This document shows positions 21,547 to 64,000 of a stretch of 64,000 bases of DNA, in pieces. The translations under genes were made by a program, and so were the position numbers. The stretch's first letter is position 1. Every line of letters begins with the position of its first letter. The notes under the pieces were generated by a model. The model had not been told where the DNA came from, made no database searches, and saw only the letters and a list, made by a program, of their open reading frames with translations. The stretch is from NCBI RefSeq assembly GCF_014284155.1, contig NZ_JACOFZ010000004.1, forward strand, positions 248,001-312,000, read 5' to 3'. This DNA comes from Affinundibacterium nitidum (GTDB lineage Bacteria > Pseudomonadota > Gammaproteobacteria > Burkholderiales > Burkholderiaceae_D).

Positions 21547-22842
21547 CTATTTAACCTCTTGATATAAAGGTTTTTTCATTTTTATCGGACGGACATCGAG
21601 TCGTATTCCCGAAACGGTAAAGTTATCCATCCCAGATTGGCTACTGTAGTAGCCCAGGCTTTCCGGTGTTTTCTGGAAATGGAATTCGAAGCCCAGAGAA
21701 TTGCTATTACTTCGCGCATCAAAAGCTAAGCCTTTAAGTGAGCGAGCGGGGCTCTCGATTAGATTGCTGATTAACTCCACAACAGCCGTATTCGCTAAGA
21801 TATCACTGTACATACGCGGTTGCTGATCAGCTTCTTCACTTTGGGTTGTCTTGATCAACTCTTTGTCTGCCGATGGTGTGATTGCTTTAGTAATTAAATC
21901 AAGTTTGTCGCCATGACTGAGATAACTAATGCGTGCGTTCTGAAGTTGAAAACCGGTTTTCGTTGATTTCTTTTGTTGCTGATTTAAGTCTAATACGATC
22001 ACGCCTTTGTAGCCAACGACTTCCAGATTGCGCTGCTGGAAAATGAACATCGCCGTATTTTCATCGACCCCTAGACCGAGGGGGATCTGTTGGCTTTGCA
22101 TGACGGGCAGCATACGGGCAAAACGTCCGCGAATGATGAGATGTTGATCAACAAAAATATGTGGCCCGATAAAACCTAAACCTTGATCGATTTCACGGCC
22201 AACGTGAATCTCATTTTGCAAGGTATGCAAAACCGATTTTGCGTTTGAAAACATAGTCTCACTCATGATTGCTGCTCCAGCACTGGTGCCAGCGATCAGC
22301 CCCCCACGGCGATATAGATCCCAAATGGCTTCCAGCAATGGTGTCCGTGTTCCGTCTTCATCAAATAAGACCTTAGTGATTCTGCTTTGATCTCCGCCGG
22401 AAAAATACACAGCGCTAGTATTCTTTAACTGGTCTAGCCACTGTGTATCGCGGTTGACCTTGGTATAAGTCGGCTTACCATCTTTGTCTAGATACTTGAT
22501 CGATAATGGCAGTAGGTAGGCATCGGCACCATATTGCTTGAGTATCTTAACCAAATTCTGGCCAGTGCGATCTGGATTGGCTGAGGCCGCAGGAATAATT
22601 GCAATTTTTGCCCCTTGGCCACCTGCTTCCTGCACAATTCTTTGCCATACCACACTGTTGTCGTAACGAAGTGCTCCGCCAATGATCGCCAAGCTTCCTT
22701 TTACCTGCATGCCGGTTTCAGCCCTCGCATTCATGCTGACGCCGAGCATAAGCAAACAAATAATGAGAGACGAAAACATATGCGGGAAACCTGCCAGCAT
22801 TGGCAAGCCTACGGATACACGAAATTGAGAGGAAGACGACAT
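21547..22842 (-). CDS. cphB: Secreted cyanophycinase (peptidase S51 family)
   Basis: Cyanophycinase cuts the storage polymer cyanophycin into beta-Asp-Arg dipeptides. The S51 core has a GTSAGAA nucleophile elbow with S187, an SGGDQ motif at 148-152, the GLGFIGPHIFVDQH block and GLGVDENTA. The N-terminus carries a hydrophobic export segment (MFSSLIICLLMLGVSMNARA), so the enzyme should act in the periplasm or outside the cell. The ATG at 22842 adds 21 residues before this segment; the ATG at 22779 is an alternative start that gives a more canonical signal peptide. A beta-rich C-terminal part of about 110 residues follows the catalytic domain. It lies downstream of a TonB-dependent receptor but behind an intrinsic terminator, so it may have its own promoter or depend on readthrough. 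Confidence 0.88.
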   Translation of the reverse strand: MSSSSQFRVSVGLPMLAGFPHMFSSLIICLLMLGVSMNARAETGMQVKGSLAIIGGALRYDNSVVWQRIVQEAGGQGAKIAIIPAASANPDRTGQNLVKILKQYGADAYLLPLSIKYLDKDGKPTYTKVNRDTQWLDQLKNTSAVYFSGGDQSRITKVLFDEDGTRTPLLEAIWDLYRRGGLIAGTSAGAAIMSETMFSNAKSVLHTLQNEIHVGREIDQGLGFIGPHIFVDQHLIIRGRFARMLPVMQSQQIPLGLGVDENTAMFIFQQRNLEVVGYKGVIVLDLNQQQKKSTKTGFQLQNARISYLSHGDKLDLITKAITPSADKELIKTTQSEEADQQPRMYSDILANTAVVELISNLIESPARSLKGLAFDARSNSNSLGFEFHFQKTPESLGYYSSQSGMDNFTVSGIRLDVRPIKMKKPLYQEVK

Positions 22843-22894
22843 GGCGATACTCGATGGAGAAAGTGGATCGGTCTAAACGTGTAAAAATGAGATC

Positions 22895-22927
22895 AAAAAA
22901 AAGGGTAGCACACATTCGATGCTACCC
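22895..22927 (-). terminator. Intrinsic terminator between the TonB-dependent receptor and cyanophycinase
   Basis: Read on the minus strand, GGGTAGCA (22927-22920) pairs with TGCTACCC (22910-22903), followed by eight T. The remaining part of the gap up to 23158 shows no gene. Confidence 0.8.
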
Positions 22928-23158
22928 TCAATGCGGGAGAAATACCGCACAAGAAAACAAAGTGAAACCAAAGTCTGCATTCGCGCTTACAAGGTAAAAC
23001 CGGAGGAAAGGTGGTGTCATCCTCAAAACGCTTATGCCGACTACAACGGTGCTACAAAAATTACTCTTTAATGCTCGTTCTTGAAGTGCCGGATCGTCGT
23101 TGGACTGACCCGGCAAACTTCTATACTGATTTCAAGGATGTGAATCTATGCCCCTCGA

Positions 23159-25861
23159 TTATTTGAAGGCATAGTTCAAACGAACGTAGAAAGCACGTCC
23201 ACGTGGATCTACATACGTTGAGTCAAAGCCAGCGAAGTAAGTCAAAGTTTGGTTCGAGAATGGTGGCTTAGTGTTCGCCAAATTCAAGATGCCGCCGCTG
23301 ATTTTGATGTCTTTAAAGCCGTAGTATGCTGCTTGCAAATCCCACAGGCTGTATGACGCTACCGTTGGACGTTTACCATTCGGATCAAGTTGTTGATCTT
23401 CGTGGTGCAATTGGAAGGTATTCGCCAAAGTGAAGCCCCATGTGCCAATATCCCAATCTGCGCTCAAGCGATGACGCCATTTTGGTGTCACGTATTCGAA
23501 GCCCCATTTGCCGAGGTTATCAAATACTTTTGAGCCTTCAGCAAATTGCTGTTCACTCTTCGTCATCAAGGTACCGGCCAAACGTGTAGTGACTTTGCCA
23601 TAGCCTTCAAACTTAGTACGGTAGGCGAGGTTGATGTCGATACCGCTCTTCGTCTCTTTACCTTGGTTCTGTGCTGTCAAAGCCCAGTTAACAATATAAC
23701 CGTCGCTGTCACGTGTGATGAAGTTCTCGACGTAAGCTGGGTCTGTATCGATCAAAGTTTCTGGTGCAAACTTGATGACGTCAGTCTTACGTACGCTCCA
23801 GAAATCGACGCCCGCAGAGAAAGCTGTTGCTGGTTCCCACACGAAACCGAAGGAGAATTGTTTAGACTTCTCTGGCTTCAGGTTTGGATTACCTGCTTCA
23901 GTAGTTGGGATTTGATCGCTAAAGCATTGAGAATCGTACTTTGTACAGCCGATCGTATCGAAGTACAAACCACCGGTTGAAGTTTCCACTTTAGATGGAT
24001 CCAAATCCTTCATTGTTGGCGCACGGAAGCCTGTGCCGAAAGATGCTCGGAACAATACTTCTTTAGTTGGCTGATAGCGCAGTGCAACTTTTGGATTAGT
24101 GGAGCTGCCAATGTTGCCGCCGTAAGAATCGTGACGCAAAGCCAGTTGTGAGCTCAATTCTTTTGTCAACGGAACTTCGAACTCGGCAAAAATCGCCTTC
24201 ACATCACGTGATTCAGACACGCGGCGGGATTTAGAAGTGGAGTAAATCGTGCCGGACAAAATTTCATCGGAAGAATTGTCTTCCAATTTTTCGCGACGGA
24301 ACTCGATACCTGTTGCCATGCCAACTGGACCCGCATCTGTCTGTGCGATTTCACGAGTAAAGCGTGCGTCAAAGATATCGCTAGTTGACTTACCTTTACG
24401 ACCATCGATGTTTCGTTCAGCACCGTCTAACAATGCTTGACCTTCAGCAGATTGTGCACCGAATGGATTGATTTTACCTGTGCGGAAAGCAGCCAACAGC
24501 TTGACGCGATCGTAGTAACCGTTAGTCAAGGTTTGTGTGTTGTCAGAGACGGAGTGCGCAAAAGCTGTGTTGTAGTCCCAACCTGCGATCGTACCTTCGC
24601 TACCTAACAAGAGACGAGATTGATTTGACTCTTGACCATTAGTACGTGCGCCACCAGGAACCATACGCATACGAACGTTGAAGGCTTTGCCATCGGTCGG
24701 TACTTTGACGCCAGCGGAGTTGACATAAAACGCTGGATAGAATGGACCACCAGCAGGGTAGGTCCAAGCGCTGCTGCTTGTGCCGTTATTGCCGTTGACG
24801 CCAGTTGGTGATAAGCGATATTTAGCGTCATTTTTTGATGCGGTGAATTCTGCGAAAATCGTATGATCTGCATCGATCGCGAAAGTTGCGCGGCTGATTA
24901 AGTTTGTTTTCGCTGACTCTGGATAGATGTCAGCTGCTGCTTGATAGTCAAAGCGGCAGGCGCCATTGATATTGATACTTGCTGGTGGAGCGCAATCTGG
25001 CGCACTTGGGTTACCCAAATACTTTTTGCCAGAAACAGAATACATACCAGCTGGGAAAGTATTGGCTGATGTAAAGTTGTCTGGATAGCCGCGCGCTTCT
25101 AATGGACGCCAAGCGCTGACAGCGAAATCACGTTGTGCTGTGCGCAGTTGATCGTTTTTCTTGTGTTGTAAGCTAGCGAAGAAATTGTAGCCATCACTAG
25201 TCAAGTTACCGAAACCTGCTAGCAAGCTGACCGTTTTGTCGCCACCGCCGCCTTCGTCTGTGCGCATGCCACCAAGACTTGCTTCGAAACCAGTGAAGTC
25301 TTTGCGCGTGATAAAGTTGATGACACCACCAACTGCATCTGCACCGTACACCGCGGATGCGCCATCTTTCAATACTTCAACACGATCAATGGCAGACAAT
25401 GGAATGGAGTTCAGATCCGTACCTTCGCCACCGAAAGCAAATGCAGCCATACGGCGACCATTCAACAATACCAAGGTGGAAGAAACACCGAGGCCGCGCA
25501 AGTTTGCACCAGACAAACCACTGGAACCTGGTTTGTCACTGATACTTGCTGATTCTTGTGTGTAACCACTGTTTGCGCTCAATGTGTTCAGTAATTGCTC
25601 AGCGGTGGTAGCGCCGGTCTTAGCGATTTCAATGCGGCTGATAACTTGCACTGGAAGCGCCGTTTCGGCGTTGATACGCTTGATTGAAGAACCCGTGATT
25701 TCAATTTTTTGCACAGCAGGTTCAGCAGCTTTGTCTTGTGCGTAAGCCGCATTTGCAGAAATACTCAGCATTGCCATCACGCCCAGTGCGGACCATGTTG
25801 CTGATGTGATTTTCTTCGGCACAGATGGGAAGCGCTGTGTGCCTGGTTTGTAATTACTCAT
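23159..25861 (-). CDS. TonB-dependent outer-membrane receptor, probable peptide/polymer-product uptake
   Basis: A 900-residue outer-membrane channel driven by TonB. The start at 25861 follows a strong GAGGAG site; the open frame extends 23 codons further upstream but without a ribosome site. After a long signal peptide (ending NAAYAQ) comes a TonB-box-like region (VQKIEITGSSIKR), the plug domain (PVQVISRIEIAKTGATTAEQ, NLRGLGVSSTLVLLNGRRMA, IDRVEVLKDGASAVYGADAV, GVINFITRKD) and a 22-strand-type barrel ending in the aromatic C-terminus YVRLNYAFK. Plug sequences of this form are shared with receptors for peptides and carbohydrates rather than siderophores. Its neighbours (RpiR regulator upstream, cyanophycinase downstream) suggest import of cyanophycin fragments, which is an inference. 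Confidence 0.85.
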   Translation of the reverse strand: MSNYKPGTQRFPSVPKKITSATWSALGVMAMLSISANAAYAQDKAAEPAVQKIEITGSSIKRINAETALPVQVISRIEIAKTGATTAEQLLNTLSANSGYTQESASISDKPGSSGLSGANLRGLGVSSTLVLLNGRRMAAFAFGGEGTDLNSIPLSAIDRVEVLKDGASAVYGADAVGGVINFITRKDFTGFEASLGGMRTDEGGGGDKTVSLLAGFGNLTSDGYNFFASLQHKKNDQLRTAQRDFAVSAWRPLEARGYPDNFTSANTFPAGMYSVSGKKYLGNPSAPDCAPPASININGACRFDYQAAADIYPESAKTNLISRATFAIDADHTIFAEFTASKNDAKYRLSPTGVNGNNGTSSSAWTYPAGGPFYPAFYVNSAGVKVPTDGKAFNVRMRMVPGGARTNGQESNQSRLLLGSEGTIAGWDYNTAFAHSVSDNTQTLTNGYYDRVKLLAAFRTGKINPFGAQSAEGQALLDGAERNIDGRKGKSTSDIFDARFTREIAQTDAGPVGMATGIEFRREKLEDNSSDEILSGTIYSTSKSRRVSESRDVKAIFAEFEVPLTKELSSQLALRHDSYGGNIGSSTNPKVALRYQPTKEVLFRASFGTGFRAPTMKDLDPSKVETSTGGLYFDTIGCTKYDSQCFSDQIPTTEAGNPNLKPEKSKQFSFGFVWEPATAFSAGVDFWSVRKTDVIKFAPETLIDTDPAYVENFITRDSDGYIVNWALTAQNQGKETKSGIDINLAYRTKFEGYGKVTTRLAGTLMTKSEQQFAEGSKVFDNLGKWGFEYVTPKWRHRLSADWDIGTWGFTLANTFQLHHEDQQLDPNGKRPTVASYSLWDLQAAYYGFKDIKISGGILNLANTKPPFSNQTLTYFAGFDSTYVDPRGRAFYVRLNYAFK

Positions 25862-25983
25862 CTTTATTGACTCCTCAGGTTTAAAATAATGCTGCAAAAA
25901 TTTTGCGAAAAAGAGATCCCGTTCAAGCACTTTTTAAAGCGCTTGTTCTTAAAAAACTATGATTGGGTGAGGGTTCTAAGGAC

Positions 25984-26961
25984 TTACTTTTTCGGCTTGC
26001 GACTTTCCAGTTGCGAGGTTCTTGAGGTGTTATCGTTATTGTGTAAATAGCCTGAGAGCGCTTCAGTCAAACGGATCGCTTTCTCGACATTTTTCTTGTT
26101 CGACACCATGATGCTACTCACAAGGGACTCAATCACAGCAATCGCTGCAGTTGAACTACTTGGAAGAACAGCATGAGTGCTTGGTGCTAATAATAAATAA
26201 TCGCCCAACTGCGCCAATGGCGAAGCGGCTGAATCGGTGATGGCGACGATGCAAGTGGAATGGTGGCGAGCAAATTGCGTCAAACGGATCACATCCAATG
26301 CATAACGTGGAAATGAAATTACGACTAATACATCCTTATCGGTAATATTAGCCAAGTTACCTGCAGCGACTTCAGTACCACCGTAACCAACGACCTCCAC
26401 CACGCGGTTGCAGTAAGGTTGCAAGTGCAATGCCAGCATCCCAGCAATATGAGCACTTAGACCGAAACCCATGATGTATACCGTGCCAGCTTTGCACAAT
26501 CGGCTCACGACTTGTTGCATTTGATCTTCTTCAAGACCGTTGCTAGCAGCGTTGATGTTGGCGGTTGCAGATTGCAGACTGGCATGGCTAGGTGATGAGC
26601 TCGGTTTCTTGCCCTCGATCGTATTGCGTAGTTTTTCTACAGGTGAAAATATAGCTTGTACAGTTTCAGCAATCTTGTTTTTCAATGCTGCGTAGTTAGA
26701 AAAGCCTAGGTCGCGCGCAAAACGGCTGATGGTGGCTGTTGAGACGTCGCATTGTTCAGCCATGTCTTCAATACCTAATGCTGTGACTTTTACTTGATTA
26801 CGCAACAAATAGTCAGCAATTCTTTTGTAGGAAGCTGAGCCATCTTGCAGTTGCGCCAGCAAAGCATTGCCGAGACTGGATTTGGCAAACACCAAATCAG
26901 GTGAGCTGCTGCCGCTGCTCAATTCGGAACCTACTTCACCGGATGTCGTATTTTTTTTCAT
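25984..26961 (-). CDS. RpiR-family transcriptional regulator (HTH + SIS)
   Basis: A 325-residue regulator. Residues about 45-105 form the RpiR helix-turn-helix domain (YKRIADYLLRNQ, DMAEQCDVSTATISRFARDL, GFSNYAALKNKI). Residues about 135-270 form a SIS ligand-binding domain (VYIMGFGLSAHIAGMLALHL, VVISFPRYALDVIRLTQFA, CIVAITDSAASPLAQLGDYL). SIS domains usually sense phosphosugars, but RpiR members also respond to other metabolites. It is the last gene before the divergent promoter region facing the zinc hydrolase and permease, with the receptor 122 bases downstream in the same direction, so it probably controls both arms and itself. A candidate operator is annotated at 27041-27085. Confidence 0.88.
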   Translation of the reverse strand: MKKNTTSGEVGSELSSGSSSPDLVFAKSSLGNALLAQLQDGSASYKRIADYLLRNQVKVTALGIEDMAEQCDVSTATISRFARDLGFSNYAALKNKIAETVQAIFSPVEKLRNTIEGKKPSSSPSHASLQSATANINAASNGLEEDQMQQVVSRLCKAGTVYIMGFGLSAHIAGMLALHLQPYCNRVVEVVGYGGTEVAAGNLANITDKDVLVVISFPRYALDVIRLTQFARHHSTCIVAITDSAASPLAQLGDYLLLAPSTHAVLPSSSTAAIAVIESLVSSIMVSNKKNVEKAIRLTEALSGYLHNNDNTSRTSQLESRKPKK

Positions 26962-27040
26962 TGGATTTTAATTTGAAAAAAATTTGTAAAAAGTCGATGG
27001 TTGAACTTTAGAACGAAACAAAATAAATTTCAATAGTTAT

Positions 27041-27085
27041 TGTCAGATTTTTTTCATAAAGATAGAATGTGTAAAAAATCAGACA
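27041..27085. promoter_or_regulatory. Candidate RpiR operator (inverted repeat)
   Basis: TGTCAGATTTTTT (27041-27053) and AAAAAATCAGACA (27073-27085) are inverted copies with one mismatch, separated by 19 bases. They lie in the 380-base divergent region between the RpiR gene and the zinc-hydrolase gene. A further related half-site, TGAAAAAAATTTG, lies at about 26974-26986. RpiR proteins bind inverted repeats, so this is the best operator candidate, but binding is inferred. No other gene or RNA is seen in this gap. Confidence 0.45.
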
Positions 27086-27341
27086 TAAAGTTTTTCATTT
27101 AATAAGACCACATTGATTCAAAAAGTGGGTGTTGGTTGTGGTGTCGTCGTGAATTTGCCTTATTTATCAAGATTTTGTGCTTAGTCTTAAGCTAAACACC
27201 GAATAGAATGGTACGAGTGGCACGAACACAAACCAATGATGTGGCAGCGGGGCGCCTAAGGAGCCTCACCAAGAAAAGAACAGAGCTAAGATGAATTGGC
27301 TCGAAAGCGCTCCAACCAATTAGATTAAGAGAGTATGACGT

Positions 27342-28469
27342 ATGCGTAGCGAAATCCATGTTTTGTCGAGTAGAAGTGCGGGTAGTCGAAAAGAACTCAC
27401 AAGCCTTCATTTTGGTTTAAATCAAAATCGCAAAAAGGTTTATATACAGTCCTCATTACATGCAGACGAAATTCCAGGCATGTTGGTCAGCTTCTACCTC
27501 AAGCAAAGGCTAGAAAAATTAGAGTCACAAGGGGCGATCGAAGGCACGGTGGTGTTGGTTCCCGTGGCGAACCCGATTGGGCTGAGCCAAGACATTCAAG
27601 GTACTGCGTTTGGTCGCTTTGATTTGGCGAGCGGCCTCAACTTCAACCGTGGATACCAACATTTGACACCAGAGATTCTCAACAGAATTGGTGAACAGTT
27701 GAGCCTCGATGTTGAATTCAATCGCCAACTGATCCGTCGCACTGCAGCCGAAATTCTCGACGAACTTCAGACAATTGATGAAACCGCTCATTTGAAAAAG
27801 ACCCTGCAACGTTTAGCGATCGATGCGGACATCGTGCTTGACCTACATTGCGACAATCAAGCAGTCATGCATTTGTACACGGGTGCTCCTCTGGCAGAAC
27901 GCGGATTACCACTCGCAGCGTTTCTGCAGGCCCACGCGTTATTAGTTTCGAAACTACCCGGCGACGATCCGTTTGATGATTCTTGTTCGCGCCATTGGTG
28001 GGAGCTACAAGACCATTTTGGTGAAACGAAGACGATTCCCCTCGCTTGCCAGTCATTGACTGTTGAACTCAGAGGTGAAACTGATGTTAGCCATGAGACC
28101 GCCAAGCAAGATGCCGACGCCATCATCGCTTACTTACAACACGAAGGACATATTCAGACAGATCCAAACAAGCGTTTCGTTACGCCACCTGCGATCTGTG
28201 TCGCCACTCCACTCGAGGGCGTAGAACCTATTGTTGCCCCGTATGGTGGGATTGTGGTGTTCACGAAAGAGCTCGGCAGTATGGTTCAAGCTGGAGATAG
28301 TATTGCGGATTTAATTGATCCTATTAGTGGTCAACTAACGCCTTTGCGAGCGAGTGTATCTGGCGTCCTCTTTGCGCGAGTGGCACGACGCTATGTTCAT
28401 GCTGGAGCGCGTATTGCCAAAATTGCCGGCCAGGTCGCCTATCGGACAGGCAATTTACTTTCTGCATAG
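27342..28469 (+). CDS. Aspartoacylase/succinylglutamate desuccinylase-family zinc hydrolase, candidate beta-Asp-Arg dipeptidase (CphZ/AotO-like)
   Basis: A 375-residue cytoplasmic zinc hydrolase of the AstE/AspA branch of the M14 fold. The zinc ligands are H40 and E43 (SLHADE) and H169 (DLH), the substrate-carboxylate clamp is NFNRG at 100-104, and E242 in VELRGE fits the catalytic glutamate. A C-terminal beta domain of about 95 residues (APYGGIVVFTKELGSMVQAG, ...) resembles a biotinyl-lipoyl-like fold. From memory, relatives of this family named CphZ (AotO in Pseudomonas aeruginosa) hydrolyse beta-Asp-Arg from cyanophycin. The neighbouring cyanophycinase makes that substrate plausible here. 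Specificity cannot be proven from sequence. It precedes the permease by 25 bases, forming a two-gene operon. Confidence 0.8.
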   Translation: MRSEIHVLSSRSAGSRKELTSLHFGLNQNRKKVYIQSSLHADEIPGMLVSFYLKQRLEKLESQGAIEGTVVLVPVANPIGLSQDIQGTAFGRFDLASGLNFNRGYQHLTPEILNRIGEQLSLDVEFNRQLIRRTAAEILDELQTIDETAHLKKTLQRLAIDADIVLDLHCDNQAVMHLYTGAPLAERGLPLAAFLQAHALLVSKLPGDDPFDDSCSRHWWELQDHFGETKTIPLACQSLTVELRGETDVSHETAKQDADAIIAYLQHEGHIQTDPNKRFVTPPAICVATPLEGVEPIVAPYGGIVVFTKELGSMVQAGDSIADLIDPISGQLTPLRASVSGVLFARVARRYVHAGARIAKIAGQVAYRTGNLLSA

Positions 28470-28494
28470 TCAGAACACATAACAGGAGACGACT

Positions 28495-29886
28495 ATGTTT
28501 AAGAAAATTAGAATGCCCAATACCTTTGTGTTGCTGTTTAGTTTGATGGCCTTGATCGCATTAGCCACTTGGTTTGTACCTGGTGGTAAGTACGCAACCC
28601 AGATCATCAATGGCAAAACGGTGGTTGATCCCGCTTCATTTCAAATTGTGGCGAGCCATCCGCAAGGTTTTGTTGATTTGATGATGTCGCCAATTAAAGG
28701 GTTTGTTGAGGCGGCGCAGATTATTGGTTTCGTGTTGATTGTTGGTGGAGCTTTTGCCGTATTGCAGAAGACAGAAGCGATCGACTCGATGATTAAAGCT
28801 GTCGCCAAAGCGCACACGCATTCCCGAGTAGTTCGGGCCATGATCATTCCAGTCTTTGTGACTTTATTTTCATTAGGTGGCGCTAGTTTTGGTATGGCCG
28901 AGGAAGCGATACCATTTGTCATGATTTTTATTCCGTTAGCGCTAGCTTTAGGTTATGACTCCATTACCGGCGTCGCGATTCCGTTTGTTGGCTCGCAAGT
29001 CGGATTTGCAGCAGCATTTTTGAATCCCTTTAACGTCGGTATTGCGCAGGGAATTGCAGGCGTGCCCGTTTTTTCCGGAATCGGCTTTCGCATTGTCGTG
29101 TGGGCGCTAGCGACTACGTTGACGATCGCATTTCTGATGTGGTACGCGGCGCGTATTAAGGCGCAGCCGCAGCTGAGTCCAACTTATGCATTGGATCAGG
29201 AAAAACGTCAACAACTAGGAAGTGACGGGTTAGCCGATTTTCAAGGGATGACCGGCACCCACAAAGCAGTTCTGTTCATGTTTGTGGGCACGCTAGCCGT
29301 AATGGTGATCGGAGTTGTGAAGTATGAGTGGTTTGTAAATGAAATTGCTGCCTTATTCTTGGTGATGGCGATTTCAGTTGGTGTTGTCGGACGATTGAAC
29401 GCAGATCGCTTTGTTGAAGCTTTCATGCACGGGGCAAAAGATTTGATCACGACCGCAATGGTGATAGCTTTAGCTCGTGCGACAATGATCTTAGCGCGTG
29501 ATGCACAGATCATTGACACTATGCTGTATCACCTAATGCCTTTGGTGCAGTCAGAAAACTCCGTATTTGCAGCGCATAAAATGTTTGTGATCCAGTCTGT
29601 CATCAATTTCTTTATTCATTCTGGAAGCGGCCAAGCCGCCTTGACTATGCCGATCATGGCGCCTTTGGCTGACCTTGTTGGTGTCTCTCGGCAAACAGCA
29701 GTATTGGCTTTTCAGTTTGGTGAATTTACTACACCAATGATTCCTACCTCAGGAATTACTGTCGGTGTCCTTGCCTTGGCACGAATTCCTTGGGCAACTT
29801 GGGCGAAATGGATGATCCCATTGCAGCTGATTTACTTTGTGCTGGCGCTCATCATGTTGGCCGTGGCTTGTCAAATTACTTGGTGA
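28495..29886 (+). CDS. YfcC/DcuC-type 12-TM permease, probable dipeptide or basic amino-acid importer
   Basis: A 463-residue inner-membrane carrier of the DcuC/YfcC superfamily, recognisable by MPNTFVLLFSLMALIALATW with VPGGKY, the GFVEAAQIIGFVLIVGGAFA helix, GMAEEAIPFVMIFIPLALA, GSQVGFAAAFLNPFNVGIAQ and the C-terminal repeat SGSGQAALTMPIMAPLADL with FTTPMIPTSG. About twelve hydrophobic helices are visible. An AGGAG site lies before the ATG, only 25 bases after the zinc-hydrolase stop. Family members move C4-dicarboxylates, arginine/ornithine or similar substrates. In this context it may carry beta-Asp-Arg, Arg or Asp across the inner membrane, as an inference. Confidence 0.8.
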   Translation: MFKKIRMPNTFVLLFSLMALIALATWFVPGGKYATQIINGKTVVDPASFQIVASHPQGFVDLMMSPIKGFVEAAQIIGFVLIVGGAFAVLQKTEAIDSMIKAVAKAHTHSRVVRAMIIPVFVTLFSLGGASFGMAEEAIPFVMIFIPLALALGYDSITGVAIPFVGSQVGFAAAFLNPFNVGIAQGIAGVPVFSGIGFRIVVWALATTLTIAFLMWYAARIKAQPQLSPTYALDQEKRQQLGSDGLADFQGMTGTHKAVLFMFVGTLAVMVIGVVKYEWFVNEIAALFLVMAISVGVVGRLNADRFVEAFMHGAKDLITTAMVIALARATMILARDAQIIDTMLYHLMPLVQSENSVFAAHKMFVIQSVINFFIHSGSGQAALTMPIMAPLADLVGVSRQTAVLAFQFGEFTTPMIPTSGITVGVLALARIPWATWAKWMIPLQLIYFVLALIMLAVACQITW

Positions 29887-62821: not shown

Positions 62822-64000
62822 TTAAGCTTCCGCAATTCTCTTTGCAATGTGAACCAAAGACTCTTCCACTTGATCGATCAAAATCAAGCACAAGTCGCCT
62901 TCCTTCAGGCTTGCTAGTGCAGTATCAATAGCGATGAATTCGCCGTTGATTTCCCTTACTTCAGTGGTGCGTTTTGCGTCTTGAAGACCAGAGCGAAGTA
63001 AGGCAACCACTTCACCATCAGCGCGACCACGTTGACATTGATCTTGATACAAAATGACCTGGTCAAAGGCATTTCCTAGGATCTCAGTTTGTTGGCGAAT
63101 GTCTTGATCCCTACGGTCGCCAGCACCGCTAATGACCACCGTACGACGATTACCTGGCATGCTATCGACGGCTTGCACCAAGGCGCTAATCGCGTCAGGA
63201 TTGTGGCCGTAGTCAGCAATCAAAGTTGCGCCGCGATAACTGAAGACATTAAAGCGACCAGGCGCATTGTCGCTGTCATTCATGAAGGTCTTCAAGCCTT
63301 GGCGGATTGCGTCCCAACTTAGGTTGATTCCCCATGCTGCTGCAACGGAAGCCATGACGTTTTCGACTTGGAATCCGATTGTGCCATTGCGTGTAATTGG
63401 GATATCTGCCAATGGAATGCGATGAACTAATTTGCCCTCAACAGCAACCAAGTCGCCATCTTCAACAAATACTACACGATGACCCTTGACGCGATGTGCC
63501 GCCATGATCGGCAATTGACTATCGACAGCAAAGAAGGTGACCGCACCTGTGCAGTTTTTGGCCATTCCAGCGACGATAGGGTCGGCGGCATTTAAAACCG
63601 CCACGCCATTTTCGGCCACGTTTTGGACGATTACGCGTTTGAGTACTGCAAGATCTTCTACGGTGGTGATGTAATTCAAACCTAAGTGATCACCTGTGCC
63701 GATATTGGTTACTACTGCTACTTTACAACGGTCATAGGCTAGACCTTCACGTAGAACTCCACCGCGAGCAGTTTCAAACACGGCTGCATCGACGTCGGGA
63801 TGTGACAATACATTTCGCGCGCTACGCGGGCCACTGCAGTCACCGCTATCGATTTGACGTCCTTCAACATAAACGCCATCGGTATTGGTCATACCAACGC
63901 GCAGGCCACTGCTCGCTAGCAAATGTGAGATGAGGCGAACTGTAGTGGTCTTGCCGTTTGTGCCGGTCACCGCAATAATAGGAATGCGGCCATCGTCTCC
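62822..64000 (-). CDS. cphA: Cyanophycin synthetase, C-terminal (Mur-ligase) half, cut by window edge
   Basis: CphA builds cyanophycin from aspartate and arginine with ATP. The frame is open to base 64000, so the N-terminal part (ATP-grasp domains) lies outside the window. The visible 392 codons form the Mur-ligase half, which adds Arg in CphA1: GRIPIIAVTGTNGKTTTVRL (P-loop), ETARGGVLREGLAYDRC, TNIGTGDHLGL, NAPGRFNVF and IADYGHNPDAISALV. CphA1, CphA2 and the betaproteobacterial second paralogue share this half, so the subtype cannot be told. It lies about 40 kb from the secreted cyanophycinase of this window. Confidence 0.92.
   Translation of the reverse strand, partial: GDDGRIPIIAVTGTNGKTTTVRLISHLLASSGLRVGMTNTDGVYVEGRQIDSGDCSGPRSARNVLSHPDVDAAVFETARGGVLREGLAYDRCKVAVVTNIGTGDHLGLNYITTVEDLAVLKRVIVQNVAENGVAVLNAADPIVAGMAKNCTGAVTFFAVDSQLPIMAAHRVKGHRVVFVEDGDLVAVEGKLVHRIPLADIPITRNGTIGFQVENVMASVAAAWGINLSWDAIRQGLKTFMNDSDNAPGRFNVFSYRGATLIADYGHNPDAISALVQAVDSMPGNRRTVVISGAGDRRDQDIRQQTEILGNAFDQVILYQDQCQRGRADGEVVALLRSGLQDAKRTTEVREINGEFIAIDTALASLKEGDLCLILIDQVEESLVHIAKRIAEA

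Follow-up and report, generated by a model that had tools for sequence, protein, structure and literature searches.

Cyanophycin is a nitrogen-storage polymer of cyanobacteria and other bacteria. A five-gene locus in a 64,000-nucleotide stretch of the Affinundibacterium nitidum genome (contig NZ_JACOFZ010000004.1, positions 248,001 to 312,000 of the forward strand; hereafter, the window) appears to form a regulated divergon for scavenging this polymer and its dipeptide beta-Asp-Arg, a reading to which we assign a probability of about 0.7. The locus joins an exported cyanophycinase, a TonB-dependent receptor and an RpiR-family regulator on one strand with a CphZ-type zinc hydrolase and a DcuC-family permease on the other (Table 1). 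The features that carry this reading were computed: the families of the gene products and their catalytic residues, the kinship of the hydrolase with CphZ, the leader peptide of the cyanophycinase, a conserved gene order, the linkage of the hydrolase and permease genes, and an operator in related loci.

Proposed pathway

In the scheme we propose, the cyanophycinase would be exported via the Sec pathway and would cut outside cyanophycin, or fragments of it, to beta-Asp-Arg in the periplasm or at the cell surface. The receptor, where present, would bring oligomers or the dipeptide across the outer membrane, the YfcC/DcuC-type permease would move beta-Asp-Arg across the inner membrane, and cytoplasmic CphZ would split it to Asp and Arg. 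The regulator, most likely a repressor lifted by a metabolite of the pathway, would act on the RpiR-CphZ intergenic region via a TGTAAA-N4-TTTACA-like operator overlapping or neighbouring the cphZ promoter. A check of open reading frames located all five frames in the window, which lies in contig 43 of a 4.38-Mb genome assembled in 80 contigs; together with domain searches, it bore out the genes, coordinates, strands and families given in a preliminary description of this DNA.

The CphZ-type hydrolase and its permease

The closest solved relative of the zinc hydrolase is CphZ, which it matches over its full length and well above other AstE/AspA enzymes. With CphZ of Acinetobacter baylyi DSM587 (PDB 8ein/8eip) it shares the full-length fold, 36% identity over the structural alignment, the zinc motif and the catalytic Glu; five further residues (A41, D42, F101, D171 and C236) are common to the window enzyme and the CphZ structure but not to 3fmc. 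The zinc-site residues H40, E43 and H169, the catalytic E242 (equivalent to E251 of A. baylyi CphZ) and R103 are invariant in our alignments, as is S187 of the cyanophycinase, all of them residues singled out in the preliminary description, and 8eip, titled E251A, and 8ein have different residues where E242 aligns. The structure comparison thus places the enzyme alongside CphZ rather than in another substrate class, a kinship on which that description had staked its proposal beforehand. The setting of the window gene differs from that of A. baylyi CphZ, in that it diverges from genes for an exported cyanophycinase and a receptor and is paired with a permease gene.

This permease is a clear DcuC-family protein (PF03606, 354 bits). 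Its subfamily, delimited by an E-value of at most 1e-100 and at least 70% identity, with coordinates compared by hand, is present in 24 of 146 family genomes as one copy each, and all 24 copies lie within about 170 bp of CphZ; these two genes are the tightest pair of the locus. Across 32 five-gene loci, median identity to the window proteins is 74% for the permease, 58% for RpiR, 50% for CphZ, 46.5% for the cyanophycinase and 40% for the receptor. No such permease was found at the locus of Roseateles toxinivorans (L199). With neighbours identified from Pfam matches or because they cluster with a relative that had been scanned, CphZ is flanked there by a substrate-binding protein, two permeases and an ATPase, after which come AraC, a pair of AstA genes and a receptor, giving an ATP-binding cassette (ABC) version with AstA beside the cyanophycinase. 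The aot operon of Pseudomonas reportedly also holds a CphZ-type enzyme, AotO, together with an inner-membrane ABC transporter, so that the likeness to the window is a CphZ-type enzyme plus an inner-membrane transporter, with a single-protein DcuC-family permease replacing the ABC transporter here. The swap in Roseateles and the reported aot operon argue that the window permease carries beta-Asp-Arg.

An exported cyanophycinase

The cyanophycinase matches Peptidase_S51 and TIGR02069, scoring 156.5 bits against the equivalog cut-off of 126.6. In addition to S187, the residues H234, E261, R238, R240 and R243 are invariant in the alignments, and all align with 3en0; we take the Ser-His-Glu residues and the Arg-rich strip after the DQH to have the roles that they have in CphB. 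The enzyme likewise has the CphB fold and residues. The leader is hydrophobic and ends in ARA, and relatives have leaders too: 79 of 105 called cyanophycinases passed the leader test, many failures being due to a gene-caller start inside the protein. Export is shared with CphE, the extracellular cyanophycinase of Pseudomonas anguilliseptica, the point compared here being the export signal. Beyond the CphB match, a C-terminal part (about residues 340-428) is conserved among the exported cyanophycinases; when whole models were compared, no PDB entry matched this part clearly.

Enzymes over the cyanophycinase cut-off occur in 42 of the 146 family genomes. In the host's own genus, four of eight genomes lack a cyanophycinase of the present kind. 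Across 398 phylum genomes, with at most four candidates scored in each, only three matched the exported-type alignment at an E-value of at most 1e-40, two of which are the host genome and one of its family. Exported-type cyanophycinases (43-45%) also lie on contigs of metagenome-assembled genomes (MAGs) whose labels are Planctomycetota, Planctomyces, Kuenenia or cyanobacteria (six loci: L184, L187, L191, L195, L205 and L208), which may reflect either transfer or misbinning, and tandem genes of this type were seen at ten loci (L147, L159, L162, L167, L169, L170, L172, L173, L194 and L209). At L147 and L159, the leader of the first tandem copy contains LQGC, which may be a lipoprotein signal, although a strict lipobox test found none. 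The host additionally encodes, on contig 80 (L122:9643-11412), a 589-aa protein that scores below the cyanophycinase cut-off; it combines a PPC domain with part of an S51 domain.

Conservation of gene order

Two sets of loci were compared: 49 fetched family stretches with a cyanophycinase, and a set of 80, the best among 562 relatives from named genomes. The sets share some genomes, some stretches stop at contig ends, and of 54 places with an E-value below 1e-66 two (G123 and G044) were left out. All five genes are present in one order and orientation in 14 of the 49 family stretches, the rest comprising three without RpiR only, four with cyanophycinase-CphZ-permease, seven with cyanophycinase-CphZ, four with receptor-cyanophycinase (one weak), three with another layout and 14 with the cyanophycinase alone. 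Among the named loci, 22 carry all five genes, in Undibacterium, Janthinobacterium, Massilia, Duganella, Rugamonas, Pseudoduganella, one genome labelled Herbaspirillum and one MAG; eight lack RpiR only, seven of these having tandem cyanophycinases and the eighth lying where the contig stops, and 21 are partial or rearranged. Among named relatives, an Oxalobacteraceae MAG comes closest at the locus, with 85% in the cyanophycinase, followed by three Undibacterium species at 53-54%. Gene order, whose loss in related genomes the preliminary description had listed as grounds for abandoning its proposal, is thus kept in related genera, and, given this order and the invariable CphZ-permease adjacency, the locus is more than a chance assembly.

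Other arrangements were also encountered. In a different cluster at L116, L117 and L119, CphZ and a TonB receptor are accompanied by a cyanophycinase and a DcuC-family permease that are both only distantly related (36-38% and 32-33%, respectively); L116 further carries an M20 peptidase, an enolase-superfamily enzyme, AstA and AraC. Genome G132 has both kinds of cluster. At L155, L160, L183 and L185, an exported-type cyanophycinase gene adjoins an RpiR gene and the rest of the cluster is missing; a GH92 glycosidase is next at L155, and L160 has a relative of it at the same place.

A candidate operator for the RpiR-family regulator

The regulator combines HTH_6 and SIS domains, as RpiR/MurR proteins do, and its helix VSTATISRFARD is common to most cluster relatives. 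From 33 RpiR-CphZ intergenic regions, drawn from 37 five-gene loci at hand including the window, we derived the palindrome TGTAAA-N4-TTTACA. With up to two mismatches it occurs in 28 of the 33, compared with a mean of 0.66 and a maximum of 4 over 200 mononucleotide shuffles, and shuffled palindromes reach at most six of the regions; the same search also returned ACAAAT without a spacer in five loci, as often as TGTAAA-N4. Because the palindrome was derived from these very regions, a scan of whole loci is the fairer test. At up to one mismatch, that scan gave 20 matches in 684 kb; 20 of the 33 loci have one apiece, always between RpiR and CphZ, and these are not independent events since the five-gene loci are related. 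No match at this threshold was found in 968 kb of 48 other loci, which include nine clusters without RpiR (two from the same genome) and four loci with only RpiR and cyanophycinase.

The window copy is degenerate: its three mismatches are equalled in 36 of 100 shuffles and are not significant alone, so that what speaks for this copy is its position, which is conserved in Undibacterium relatives (the sites of the window, L134, L135, L136 and L137 were placed by hand from the alignment) and lies over a sigma-70-like promoter match. Such promoter matches are no commoner than chance predicts (12 found, 13.3 expected), and only position and score favour the one listed in Table 1. RpiR control, as first suggested, thereby gains a candidate operator in relatives, while the window itself contributes only this degenerate site.

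Table 1. Genes and candidate regulatory features of the locus, in window coordinates
Feature	Position	Strand	Basis or remarks
Exported cyanophycinase, 431 aa	21547..22842	-	Signal peptide; S51 domain ~48-324; S187/H234/E261; conserved C-terminal part ~340-428
Terminator-like stem-loop, 11 pairs, T tail	22901..22929	-	Consensus match only; between receptor and cyanophycinase
TonB-dependent receptor, 900 aa from likely start ATG 25861 (frame open to GTG 25930)	23159..25861	-	PF00593 5.3e-40; PF07715 6.7e-20; ribosome-binding site
RpiR-family regulator, 325 aa	25984..26961	-	HTH_6 + SIS
Sigma-70-like promoter match TTGTCA-N17-TAGAAT, 10/12, toward cphZ-yfcC	27040..27068	+	Top score in 10 kb scanned
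Operator-like site TGTCAGATTTTTTTCA, 3 mismatches	27041..27056	.	Position aligned with TGTAAA-N4-TTTACA of relatives
Putative second TGTAAA...ACA half-site pair TGTAAAAAATCAGACA, downstream of first site	27070..27085	.	Read from alignments
CphZ-type zinc hydrolase (predicted cyanophycin dipeptide hydrolase), 375 aa	27342..28469	+	AstE_AspA_cat; no signal peptide by eye
YfcC/DcuC-family permease, 463 aa	28495..29886	+	PF03606 1.3e-105

The TonB-dependent receptor

The receptor has the plug and barrel domains of its class. Its start is most likely ATG 25861 and not GTG 25930: GAGGAG stands just upstream of this codon, a signal peptide follows it, and the orthologue in G132 has a stop codon within the stretch between the two candidate starts. 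A single dedicated receptor clade for the five-gene loci was rejected (p-AU 3e-6) in a tree of 58 receptors built by a quick method with 22 five-gene rows; the 58 were retained from 74 rows after 16 near-duplicates or far rows were left out, and the 21 non-cluster receptors are a sample because six candidates were scored per genome. The window receptor is 85-86% identical to those of L134 and L136 versus 41-42% to those of L135 and L137, whereas permease identity holds at 80-85%, a jump against a steady neighbour which indicates that the slot was refilled.

Evidence against the scheme and alternative explanations

Several observations weigh against the scavenging scheme. The receptors are polyphyletic and the slot has held several lineages, which makes the receptor the weak link of the scheme and a role dedicated to cyanophycin uncertain. 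Cyanophycinase-CphZ-permease clusters without a receptor occur in four of the family stretches and two of the named loci, and beta-Asp-Arg is small enough for porins. Of the 80 named loci, 29 have a cyanophycinase without any of the other four genes. The permease scores 391.6 bits against YfcC NF008611, below the cut-off of 500. A terminator-like stem precedes the cyanophycinase gene, and it and the receptor gene may therefore not share one transcript; such stems number 15 in the region with 11.1 expected. The operator, at one mismatch, is missing from 13 of the 33 five-gene loci, the window among them, and from the four loci with only RpiR and cyanophycinase. Finally, the host encodes its own cyanophycin synthetases, so the polymer need not be foreign. 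The original proposal of digestion, import and splitting is accordingly supported in part, by CphZ kinship, conserved order and the candidate operator, and weakened where it leans on the receptor.

The foremost alternative is that the receptor, and perhaps the regulator, stands outside the cyanophycin pathway, the unit being cyanophycinase, CphZ and permease with the dipeptide entering via porins and the receptor importing something else. We consider this unlikely. Receptor polyphyly and the existence of cyanophycinase-CphZ(-permease) loci without a receptor agree with it, as does the median of 40% between the window receptor and those of the 32 other five-gene loci, no closer than a paralogue in the same genome (41%). 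However, the receptor occupies the same place and direction in the 22 five-gene and eight RpiR-less named loci and lies near the cyanophycinase in Roseateles too. That receptors were recruited to one slot more than once suggests that they are of use, and the operator occurs specifically between RpiR and CphZ.

It is a good deal less probable that the locus serves general isoaspartyl or cationic dipeptide scavenging, with a main substrate other than cyanophycin, such as beta-Asp-Lys or other environmental isopeptides. No AstA was found in the host genome, a point in favour of broader scavenging, as are the M20 peptidase and enolase-superfamily enzyme of the related L116 cluster. Against it, the exported enzyme exceeds the cyanophycinase equivalog cut-off and has the CphB fold and residues. 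Passages of PMC10206079 report that CphZ is specific for the two cyanophycin dipeptides, with beta-Asp-Lys also accepted, and so bear on both sides.

The host probably makes cyanophycin. A CphA1-like gene runs from window position 62822 to beyond the window end and adjoins a second, shorter CphA-like gene, in which no Mur ligase domain was matched (the pair is at window 62822-64000 and L123:7323-12165); the host genome matches TIGR02068 at an E-value of 1.7e-294. It also has an IaaA-type asparaginase and no IadA match over the cut-off. That the locus recycles this endogenous polymer is very improbable: the two CphA-like genes lie on the same contig about 33 kb away, the enzyme is the sole cyanophycinase over the cut-off in its genome, and a TIGR02068 match accompanies this enzyme type (128-157 bits; cross-read by hand) in each of the 40 family genomes that have it, but the enzyme has an export leader while cyanophycin granules form in the cytoplasm, 73 of the 113 family genomes (of 146) with TIGR02068 matches lack this enzyme type, and the locus is not beside the synthetases, whereas at least 17 of 22 high-scoring family cyanophycinases (205-271 bits) adjoin a cphA match.

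Relation to described systems

Earlier literature covers the enzymes, clusters for scavenging and a single case of a receptor paired with a cyanophycinase. Passages of PMC10206079 describe aspartoacylase-like beta-Asp-Arg hydrolases and recount the cyanophycin utilization loci of Ben Hania et al., in which a cyanophycinase, an isoaspartyl dipeptidase and a transporter are clustered and are thought to serve environmental scavenging. The window has this clustered trio, with CphZ as its dipeptidase in place of the IadA or IaaA given there and a YfcC-type permease as its transporter, and adds a TonB-dependent receptor, an RpiR regulator and a host with synthetases. Those passages count 52 genomes without cphA1; absence of cphA1 from the host, no strict requirement for such a locus, does not hold for the window genome. 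In Citromicrobium sp. JLT1363, a TonB-dependent transporter lies near a cyanophycinase, with cyanophycin suggested as its substrate (PMC3400609); the pairing is common to the window, and the passages concerned, unlike the window, tell of no CphZ, permease or RpiR.

Within this known kind of cluster, the novelty lies in the arrangement of five genes as a divergon, together with the candidate operator and the linkage of the permease. We found no description of this layout in the open-access literature, in which papers on cyanophycin and TonB were covered only in part, and no open-access paper joining cyanophycin with RpiR or with YfcC. The earlier impression that the arrangement is not a described system therefore holds for the whole, its parts being in print in the two papers cited.

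Implications

A broader picture, which we advance tentatively and judge somewhat short of an even chance, is of a poly-amino-acid system resembling polysaccharide utilization loci. Several Oxalobacteraceae would import cyanophycin fragments actively via a TonB receptor recruited repeatedly to one slot and a dedicated DcuC/YfcC-family permease for beta-Asp-Arg, with the product sensed by an RpiR-type regulator at TGTAAA-N4-TTTACA, in hosts that have synthetases and perhaps feed on the stores of lysed kin and of cyanobacteria. If true, the locus would provide a candidate isopeptide carrier in the DcuC/YfcC family, a receptor that may take up a polymer fragment and a regulator whose candidate operator is defined, and it would constitute a complete, testable cyanophycin-feeding route for beta-proteobacteria of the Oxalobacteraceae type.
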